Assembly: GCA_021740915.1 (NCBI GenBank) | Contig: JAIOYW010000004.1 | Span: 186,001 to 250,000 of the forward strand | Source: Ignavibacteriales bacterium | GTDB taxonomy: Bacteria > Bacteroidota > Ignavibacteria > Ignavibacteriales > Melioribacteraceae | DNA length: 64,000 nt | Direction of reading: 5' to 3' | Shown: positions 10,934 to 13,105 of the stretch, piece after piece | How the letters are laid out: every line of letters begins with the position of its first letter | Position numbering within the stretch: position 1 is the stretch's first letter | Notes under the pieces: generated by a model | The model's input: the letters and a program-made list of their open reading frames with translations, nothing else | What the model was told of the DNA's origin: nothing | Database searches by the model: none | Translations under genes and position numbers: made by a program

Positions 10934-12004
10934 TTAATCTATAAAAGTGATCCAGCCAAATCTGTCCTCGATTCGACCATACTGGATGTCCGTGATTTCT
11001 TTATATAATTTCCTGCCAAGTTCGCCTGCTTCCTCTTCAGAAAACTGTAAGAGTATATCTCCATATTTGAGGCGCCCGATAGATGATATTACAGCAGCGG
11101 TTCCACTGCCGAATAACTCCATCAGCCTGCCTGATTTATAGCCTTCAATAACTTCCTGAATAGCTATTTTTCTTTCTGTAACGTTATATCCCCAATCCTT
11201 CAGAATCTGAATTACAGAATTGCGCGTTACCCCAGGCAGAATCGACCCGCTCAGTGCGGGAGTAGCAACTTCGTCTTTGAAATGGACGAACATGTTCATA
11301 GTGCCAACTTCTTCAATATACTTTTGCTCGATTGCGTCGAGCCATAAAACCTGTGTAAAGCCCTGCTCTCTTGCTTCCTTTTGGGCCGCAAGGCTCGCAG
11401 CATAATTTCCGGCTGCTTTACACTCTCCAACGCCCTTTCTCACGGCTCTGACGTATTTGTCCGTCGCCATAATCGGCACAGGTTTGAATCCTTCGGGATA
11501 ATAAGGGCCCACCGGACTTAAAATGACAATCAGCTTGTAAGTTTCTGATGGTCTTACACCGAGATAAGGATCGGTTGACATCATCATCGGACGAATGTAT
11601 AAAGCGTGTCCGGGTTTTCTGGGTATCCAGTCCCGATCAATACTTATAAGCTCTTTTATAGCATTTAGAACAAATTCGCCGTCAAATTCCGGCATAATTA
11701 GCCGTTTTGCAGAATTGTTCATTCGCTCCATATTTTTTTTAGGGCGAAAAAGTGCTACCCGTCCATCATCTCTGATATAGGCTTTTAATCCTTCGAATAT
11801 CTCCTGCCCGTAATGTAAAGCCATCGCTGCAGGATTAACCGAAATTGGGCCATATTTTTTTATTGCTGCTTTGTACCAGCCACCCTTTGCTTCATCATAA
11901 TCCATTTCAAACATATGGTCTGAAAACATTCTTCCAAAAAGTAATTTTTCTGGTAATTCAACTTTTGATTCTCGTTTTACTATTTGATAATCGATACTTA
12001 TCAT
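10934..12004 (-). CDS. ilvE: Branched-chain amino acid aminotransferase
   Basis: PLP enzyme of fold type IV that transfers amino groups between glutamate and the keto acids of Leu, Ile and Val, the last step of their synthesis and the first of their breakdown. At 356 aa it belongs to the longer class II (eukaryote-like) branch. PLP-binding Lys196 lies in GECKAAGNYAAS, the Arg/Tyr substrate region is ALYIRPMMMSTDPYLGVRPS, and phosphate contacts lie in SGSILPGVTRNS and LFGSGTAAVISS. The start ATG 12004 has CGGAGC 9 bases upstream. It is preceded by a short Ile/Leu-rich leader and an intrinsic hairpin and followed by its own terminator, so it appears to be a single-gene unit with attenuation control. 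Confidence 0.95.
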   Translation of the reverse strand: MISIDYQIVKRESKVELPEKLLFGRMFSDHMFEMDYDEAKGGWYKAAIKKYGPISVNPAAMALHYGQEIFEGLKAYIRDDGRVALFRPKKNMERMNNSAKRLIMPEFDGEFVLNAIKELISIDRDWIPRKPGHALYIRPMMMSTDPYLGVRPSETYKLIVILSPVGPYYPEGFKPVPIMATDKYVRAVRKGVGECKAAGNYAASLAAQKEAREQGFTQVLWLDAIEQKYIEEVGTMNMFVHFKDEVATPALSGSILPGVTRNSVIQILKDWGYNVTERKIAIQEVIEGYKSGRLMELFGSGTAAVISSIGRLKYGDILLQFSEEEAGELGRKLYKEITDIQYGRIEDRFGWITFID

Positions 12005-12042
12005 ACAATGCTCCGATAATAAATCAATGGTCTGTTAATGTT

Positions 12043-12074
12043 TAAAATAAAAATGCCCGGTGAAAACCGGGCAT
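12043..12074 (-). terminator. Leader terminator (attenuator hairpin) upstream of ilvE
   Basis: Perfect 9-bp stem ATGCCCGGT / ACCGGGCAT (12053-12061 and 12066-12074) with a GAAA/TTTC loop. On the minus strand it is followed by TTTTTATTTT. It sits between the leader peptide and ilvE, with its 5' arm touching the leader stop codon. On the RNA, the 5' arm core CCCGGT could instead pair with ACCAGGG of the leader ribosome site (12149-12155, one bulged A), a possible antiterminator. Confidence 0.82.
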
Positions 12075-12142
12075 CAAAAATCACTAAAGGTCATAATAAT
12101 GCCAAGAATATTAAGAATAATATATAGATTAATCCCTGACAT
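12074..12142 (-). CDS. ilvE leader peptide (22 aa, Ile/Leu-rich)
   Basis: A short frame from ATG 12142 to TGA 12074, preceded by GGGAG 5 bases upstream. The peptide begins MSGINLYIILNILGIIMT and ends FSDF. Nine of its 22 residues are Ile or Leu, including runs I-I-L, I-L and I-I. An intrinsic terminator follows directly, then ilvE 69 bases later. This is the classic layout of transcription attenuation for branched-chain amino acid genes, where a ribosome slowed at Ile/Leu codons decides whether the hairpin forms. An in-frame ATG at 12163 would lengthen it to 29 aa, but the ribosome site favours 12142. A small membrane peptide unrelated to control is the main alternative. Confidence 0.72.
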   Translation of the reverse strand: MSGINLYIILNILGIIMTFSDF

Positions 12143-12184
12143 TTTTCTCCCTGGTGAATGCATAATTGCTAAAATCCCTATATA

Positions 12185-12212
12185 AAGATAAAAAAAAAGG
12201 GGGAATTATCAA
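12185..12212 (-). promoter_or_regulatory. Candidate promoter of the ilvE leader
   Basis: Minus strand TTGATA (12207-12212) and TATCTT (12185-12190) with a 16-base spacer. Transcription would begin near 12178, giving a leader of about 36 bases before the leader-peptide start. Only moderate matches to consensus. Confidence 0.4.
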
Positions 12213-12271
12213 TAATTCGGATATTTGATTATATTAGTTATATAGTGTAAATAGGAAGGGTAAGGTCATAA

Positions 12272-13105
12272 ATGAATTTTAGCAGAATCGGACTGGCAGT
12301 CACTTTTTCGCCGACCGGAGTAGCACTTTTATCTGAAGCATACAGACTCTCTAAACTGCTTGAGGCAGATCTTGTCCTTATCCATGTTGGAGAGAGGGGT
12401 GAATCACTTGAAAACAAACTGAAAGAAATGATCATAAAAGCTGGTATAAGCGATGGTAAATATGATCTCATCTGGGCAAAGGGAGACCCCGTCAGGGCAA
12501 TACTCAGTGCAGTGTCAGAAAATAATATTGATTTGCTGCTTATGGGTGCTCTCGAAAAAGAAAAGTCAATCAATTATTACCTCGGTTCAATCGCACGAAA
12601 AATAATGAGAGAAACAGTAAGTTCTATTTTGATTTTCACATCGCCATCAGAGAACCCGGAGGAATTTGGAGAAATTTTTGCTGTAACCAACTATTTGGAA
12701 GGATGTGAGAAAGTCATTTCTACGGCTTATAACCTTGCTAAAGTCGGAAAAAGTCCGAGTCTGACCGTTATAAGAGAGTTTCAATTGCCAGGTCTCGGCA
12801 TTACTGTTTCTGATTCCGGCGATCTTGAGGAAATTGAAAAAAATCGCGAAAGGTGGATCGCTGAAGAAAAGGAAAAATTGAATTTTTTTCTGCTCGAGCT
12901 TAATATCTCCGATCCAGACATAAAAAAAGTTGTGTTGTTCGGCAAAGAAGGCTGGGTGGCTAATGAATACGCTAAAGAAAAAAATGCAGGTTTACTTGTA
13001 GTTAGTGCTCCAAAAAGAAAACCTGGATTCTTTGACCGGATCTTCACTCATGATTTTGAGTTTACTATTAAAGAATTACCCAAAAGACTTCTGATAATTA
13101 AATAG
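12272..13105 (+). CDS. Tandem universal stress protein (UspA family)
   Basis: 277 aa with two Usp-like alpha/beta halves. The first (residues 1-125) has the strand IGLAVTFSPTG, then LEADLVLIHVG, NNIDLLLMGA and the loop GSIARKIMRETVSSILIF that resembles the nucleotide-binding G-x(9)-G-S/T region. The second half is more diverged and ends NAGLLVVSAPKRKPG with ELPKRLLIIK. ATG 12272 has AAGGT 7 bases upstream. Usp proteins bind ATP or dimerise and often act with transporters. The antiporter gene starts one base after this stop, so the two are co-translated and the protein may regulate that antiporter (inference). Confidence 0.85.
   Translation: MNFSRIGLAVTFSPTGVALLSEAYRLSKLLEADLVLIHVGERGESLENKLKEMIIKAGISDGKYDLIWAKGDPVRAILSAVSENNIDLLLMGALEKEKSINYYLGSIARKIMRETVSSILIFTSPSENPEEFGEIFAVTNYLEGCEKVISTAYNLAKVGKSPSLTVIREFQLPGLGITVSDSGDLEEIEKNRERWIAEEKEKLNFFLLELNISDPDIKKVVLFGKEGWVANEYAKEKNAGLLVVSAPKRKPGFFDRIFTHDFEFTIKELPKRLLIIK

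Follow-up and report, generated by a model that had tools for sequence, protein, structure and literature searches.

A putative leader-peptide attenuator upstream of ilvE in Melioribacteraceae, associated with loss of branched-chain amino acid biosynthesis and possibly inverted in its logic

Known leader-peptide attenuators

For biosynthetic operons, attenuation by leader peptides is a long-established textbook mechanism. In Escherichia coli, the ilvL, ivbL, leuL, thrL, hisL, trpL and pheL elements place a small leader peptide, enriched in the amino acids concerned, and an intrinsic terminator in front of an amino acid metabolism gene, and all classical amino acid attenuators keep more than 20 bp between the leader stop and the terminator (PMC4824070). 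A branched-chain leader peptide has also been described outside the Proteobacteria, namely the Leu-rich leader of Staphylococcus aureus ilvD, which is backed by reporter and mutant evidence; it belongs to a biosynthetic ilv-leu operon, is induced by starvation and has a predicted antiterminator (PMC5794164). According to a survey from 2010, leader-peptide attenuation had been known only in Proteobacteria and Actinobacteria before the Firmicutes cases reported in the survey itself (PMC2965389). Our literature search found no report of a comparable element in Ignavibacteria. Vitreschak et al. (2004) reportedly mention attenuators in the Bacteroidetes/Chlorobi group.

Different arrangements exist in other E. 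coli systems. In tnaC-tna, a leader peptide switches on a gene for the breakdown of an amino acid that is in ample supply, using nascent-chain stalling and Rho rather than an intrinsic terminator and codon supply. In pyrBI, the pyrL frame reaches and overlaps the terminator, no antiterminator is present, and UTP is sensed via RNA polymerase pausing, with the coupled ribosome blocking the terminator hairpin (PMC5021804).

The element described here precedes ilvE in the window, i.e., the whole stretch of 64,000 nucleotides that was analysed (positions 186,001 to 250,000 of contig JAIOYW010000004.1, assembly GCA_021740915.1), which comes from a member of the family Melioribacteraceae, phylum Ignavibacteriota. 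It shares its parts with the E. coli amino acid leaders, but in those the stop codon lies 21 to 62 nt before the terminator and an antiterminator is present, whereas in Melioribacteraceae the stop touches or passes the stem and no antiterminator is detectable. Also unlike in classical attenuators, the gene behind the leader is mostly found in genomes without the biosynthetic pathway. The layout is closer to that of pyrL, except that Ile/Leu/Val codons would here set the speed of the ribosome, and the proposed outcome resembles that of tnaC-tna in that an abundant amino acid would turn a catabolic gene on.

The ilvE leader region in the window

All features discussed for the window lie on its minus strand. 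The putatively regulated gene, ilvE (10934-12004), encodes a branched-chain aminotransferase of 356 aa, and the class II assignment made in an earlier sequence-only reading was borne out by profile scores (TIGR01123, 393.8 bits; PRK13357, 472.6 bits). Upstream of it, a frame of 22 codons (MSGINLYIILNILGIIMTFSDF followed by TGA; 12074-12142), six of them for Ile and three for Leu, runs from an ATG at 12142-12140 to the TGA at 12076-12074 and is preceded by the Shine-Dalgarno (SD) sequence AGGGAG (12147-12152); Ile/Leu/Val-rich frames occupy the same place in relatives. A second in-frame ATG further upstream (12163-12161) would extend the frame to 29 codons, but it lacks a good SD sequence. The TGA overlaps the first bases of an intrinsic terminator, GATGCCCGGTTTTCACCGGGCATT (12075-12052), and only touches the foot of its stem. 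This hairpin (GATGCCCGGT-TTTC-ACCGGGCATT) has 10 bp and a free energy of about -16 kcal/mol, and is followed by TTTATTTT, with the U-rich tail extending to about 12041. The gap between the TGA and the ilvE start codon (ATG at 12004) is 69 nt. The sequence-only reading had placed the frame, its SD sequence, the nine Ile/Leu codons, the terminator and the gap correctly in every coordinate.

The upstream neighbour is divergent and ilvE forms a single-gene unit; thus, the terminator ends no other unit and belongs to the leader of ilvE itself. A possible promoter (TTGATA-16-TATCTT, 12185-12212) is a weak match to the consensus and carries no indication of function. A possible 12-bp hairpin (AUGUCAGGGAUU / AAUAUUCUUGGCAU) within the leader and over its start codon (approximately 12099-12142) appeared in the minimum free energy fold, and folding of the leader region of the window was not significant compared with shuffled sequences. 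Covariance models for Rfam leader families, T-boxes and riboswitches gave no match near the gathering score at 11900-12300, and Rfam models gave no match in 20 related loci.

Taken alone, the combination of leader and terminator in the window is only moderately unlikely by chance and is therefore suggestive. When the 140 nt upstream were shuffled with dinucleotide composition preserved, a frame that was as rich in Ile/Leu and extended to the terminator arose in 4.5% of the shuffles with any start codon, 1.9% with ATG, and 0.26% with ATG plus an SD sequence. Of the 91 terminators across 800 kb of this genome, 11, including that of the window, had an Ile/Leu/Val-rich frame at the same position, and a scan of these 800 kb for other attenuators returned only background-like matches. 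It is the recurrence in relatives that makes the leader significant.

Recurrence in related genomes

A terminator was found upstream of ilvE in 28 of 67 Melioribacteraceae ilvE regions, and 26 of these 28 were preceded by a frame in which Ile, Leu and Val made up at least 40%, compared with the background of 11/91 (p = 4e-22). The leaders, such as MTFNIINILLIIV*, MKKILEINIIILGFIVIII* and MIDTIFNIELILLV*, span many genera and are unrelated to one another in peptide sequence. Because of this recurrence across genera, a leader peptide with an attenuating terminator before ilvE, as the sequence-only reading had suggested, is well supported by comparative sequence evidence. Elsewhere in the order, a terminator was present in 16 of 50 ilvE upstream regions from other families, and only four passed the leader test.

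A very improbable explanation is that there is no regulation at all and that an ordinary terminator near ilvE is accompanied by a chance frame. The single-window frequency given above (4.5% with any start codon) is not tiny, but the element recurs in relatives and the gene upstream is divergent, both of which argue against a chance origin.

Association with the loss of branched-chain biosynthesis

No ilvB, ilvC or leuA (acetolactate synthase, ketol-acid reductoisomerase and isopropylmalate synthase) scored above cut-off in the genome of the window, which is estimated to be 100% complete; therefore, the organism is very probably a branched-chain auxotroph. In place of the biosynthetic operon of classical attenuators, ilvE stands alone here. 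The genome has a VorB-type 2-oxoacid oxidoreductase (555 bits; curated cut-off 399) beside a 2-oxoacid dehydrogenase complex, in a cluster that encodes VOR-like 2-oxoacid:ferredoxin oxidoreductase subunits, lipoyl synthase, E2, a fused E1 alpha-beta and lipoamide dehydrogenase (L334, 9927-19057, on G000:C31). As a separate observation, hisG was not found in the assembly of the window (G000), and the organism may be auxotrophic for histidine as well.

By defining auxotrophs as genomes without ilvC (or ilvB) over the curated cut-off, a strong association with the leader was observed: the ratio of auxotrophs to prototrophs was 23/3 among genomes with the leader and 6/34 among the others (Fisher 3e-9), and 18/3 versus 4/29 among genomes at least 90% complete (p = 7e-8). 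The link persisted when genus-by-state combinations were counted (p = 0.002), and correlated evolution of leader and auxotrophy gave a better fit on the ilvE tree (p = 5e-4; a gene tree built by a quick method). Tree-based independent pairs leaned in one direction (about 3.4 to 0.1) and are too few for significance. The sequence-only reading had taken absence of the short frame or of its Ile/Leu codons in relatives as evidence against an attenuator. By automatic criteria the leader is absent from 41 of 67 regions, mostly in prototrophs, and present in 23 of 29 auxotrophs.

The exceptions by automatic criteria are three prototrophs with a leader and six auxotrophs without one. Individual closely related cases agree with the association: in the prototroph locus L032, the leader ATG is out of frame, whereas the frame is intact in its near-identical auxotroph sister L035; in L034, another prototroph, the terminator has decayed; and G008 is a prototroph without a leader. 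Since the element is found mainly in genomes without branched-chain biosynthesis, ilvE in the leader-bearing auxotrophs is probably not biosynthetic and would instead serve catabolism.

Search for an antiterminator and position of the leader end

A helix that excludes the terminator is a defining part of trp/ilv-type attenuators. The sequence-only reading had proposed such an antiterminator between ACCAGGG and CCCGGT, which amounts to -6.2 kcal/mol in the window. The best pairing of the leader and SD region with the 5' half of the terminator in the window reached -8.0 kcal/mol, compared with -8.8 +/- 1.9 for shuffled sequences. When the pairing of the leader with the 5' half of the terminator was scored as a duplex against shuffled sequence, Melioribacteraceae leaders gave a mean z of -0.17 (24 leaders), a test of signal that does not prove absence, and -0.20 with the SD region included (26 leaders), whereas seven E. 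coli amino acid leaders gave -2.8 and pyrL +0.5. Nascent-RNA pairing of the terminator 5' arm likewise yielded no antiterminator signal. In neither the window nor its relatives did antiterminator pairing exceed that of shuffled sequences.

The first leader search required the stop to lie at or beyond -20 relative to the stem, and an unconstrained re-run was made to check for selection bias. The best unconstrained frames ended at or beyond -20 in 24 of 27 cases and past +9 in 11; in the three exceptions, the leader was a close second (L010 and L158) or ranked lower (L173). By comparison, the stops of the seven E. coli amino acid leaders are at -21 to -62, and that of pyrL is at +47. Because the frames end at or in the terminator and no antiterminator signal was detected, the layout is pyrL-like; in the window, the overlap of stop and stem departs from the classical spacing of more than about 20 nt. 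The leaders start 50-90 nt upstream of the stem, and 258 of 274 Ile/Leu/Val codons are placed so that a ribosome stalled on them would not cover the stem. In about ten of 24 leaders, the window's not among them, the terminator is immediately preceded by a strong hairpin (45-nt fold, Stouffer z -8.2), and this hairpin is possibly an RNA polymerase pause.

Studies in E. coli have shown that a translated frame ending a few nucleotides upstream represses a terminator almost fully, that release occurs beyond about 27-30 nt, and that slower translation leads to more termination (PMC4824070).

Proposed mechanism and alternative explanations

Given the stop position, the E. coli terminator data and the stall positions of the codons, the simplest reading is that arrival of the ribosome blocks the terminator. 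We infer that the leader is translated and coupled to transcription. The transcript would begin upstream of the leader, and a ribosome would trail RNA polymerase across the Ile/Leu/Val codons. With ample charged tRNAs, it would reach the end of the frame at the terminator 5' arm, no hairpin would form, and ilvE would be transcribed. With Ile, Leu or Val scarce, it would stall upstream, the terminator would form, and transcription would halt before ilvE. In an auxotroph that retains a VorB-type oxidoreductase, such a shut-off would prevent IlvE from diverting amino acids in short supply to the oxidation of 2-oxoacids. For a leader-peptide attenuator on single-gene ilvE whose logic is inverted relative to trp/ilv attenuators, with the direction deduced from the layout, we consider the chances about even. 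The fuller proposal, in which the ribosome itself acts as the antiterminator, shortage of Ile, Leu or Val turns off a stand-alone ilvE with a catabolic role, and lineages that lost branched-chain biosynthesis repeatedly acquired or retained the element, is held more tentatively, at slightly below even chances.

Several observations weigh against this proposal. In L015, L016 and L018, the stop lies 13-17 nt before the stem, a distance that a ribosome positioned there could hardly span. In addition, ribosomes fail to repress E. coli terminators that lie less than 100 bp into a coding region, except where a pause brings ribosome and polymerase into step (PMC4824070), which counts against an inverted response given the leader starts described above and a pause hairpin in only about 10 of 24 leaders. 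The three prototrophs with a leader, the six auxotrophs without one, and the codon changes between close leader pairs, which show no preference for retaining Ile/Leu/Val, also speak against it.

The foremost alternative is the classical one, in which stalling at Ile/Leu codons favours an antiterminator and ilvE is read in starvation, so that an auxotroph could regenerate its branched-chain amino acids by using scavenged 2-oxoacids or branched acids. A leader peptide with a terminator is its hallmark, a helix of -8.5 kcal/mol is possible in the window between GGCAUUA and UGAUGCC at the foot of the terminator, the leader hairpin could serve as a 1:2 helix, and both IlvE and VOR are reversible. 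However, antiterminator pairing is similar to that of shuffles in the window and the family and was found in E. coli leaders by the same test, the leader ends crowd the terminator, and the element is mostly missing from prototrophs, where induction by starvation would be most useful. This explanation is thus disfavoured and regarded as unlikely, although it keeps an appreciable share of our belief. The starvation-favoured readthrough of the sequence-only reading is unsupported on the same grounds, and the inverted readout is the best supported explanation.

It is also conceivable, but quite improbable, that the attenuator senses general translation or the leader start, and that the Ile/Leu/Val codons merely reflect a short AT-rich hydrophobic frame. 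About 12% of the terminators in the genome of the window have such a frame by chance, the leader start codon in the window can be paired, and close pairs keep Ile/Leu/Val codons no more than expected: of 29 codon changes counted across six pairs of closely related leaders, 13 stayed within Ile/Leu/Val, similar to the random 51%, in a weak comparison with one pair mis-registered by an indel. On the other hand, 26/28 versus 11/91 is far over background and involves many genera and unrelated peptides.

The ilvE leader is spread over many genera of a family in Ignavibacteriota and tracks the loss of a pathway rather than its presence. If the inverted proposal is true, the same parts have been rewired from making more when starved to ceasing to burn when starved, and this would have been achieved without an antiterminator, by shifting the stop codon to the terminator.

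A second RNA element upstream of ilvE

The ilvE upstream regions of another family in the order contain a conserved RNA of about 70 nt. It has two hairpins, whose loops are rich in C (TACCCCCC and GCCCTCC), as well as a U-rich tail, and lies 66-95 nt before ilvE (loci L177, L178, L180, L181, L183, L187, L200, L209, L214, L216, L220, L221 and L225). The element is no leader peptide and lacks an Rfam match, a TTGACA/TATGTT-like promoter precedes it in some loci, and exact copies of its terminator usually occur once per genome, with 4-5 copies in two genomes. This RNA may act in cis as an attenuator or be a small RNA.

Within Melioribacteraceae, the terminators before ilvE in L012, L040, L041, L048, L051, L166 and L173 have the CCCTCC loop of this two-hairpin element, and in several read-through leaders that loop is translated as P-S-(T/A)-G-H. 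In L167, the ilvE upstream region of the auxotroph G135, the leader position is seemingly taken by a GC-rich inserted repeat (CTTGCCTACCCGCTACGACG...GCAGGCAGGC).
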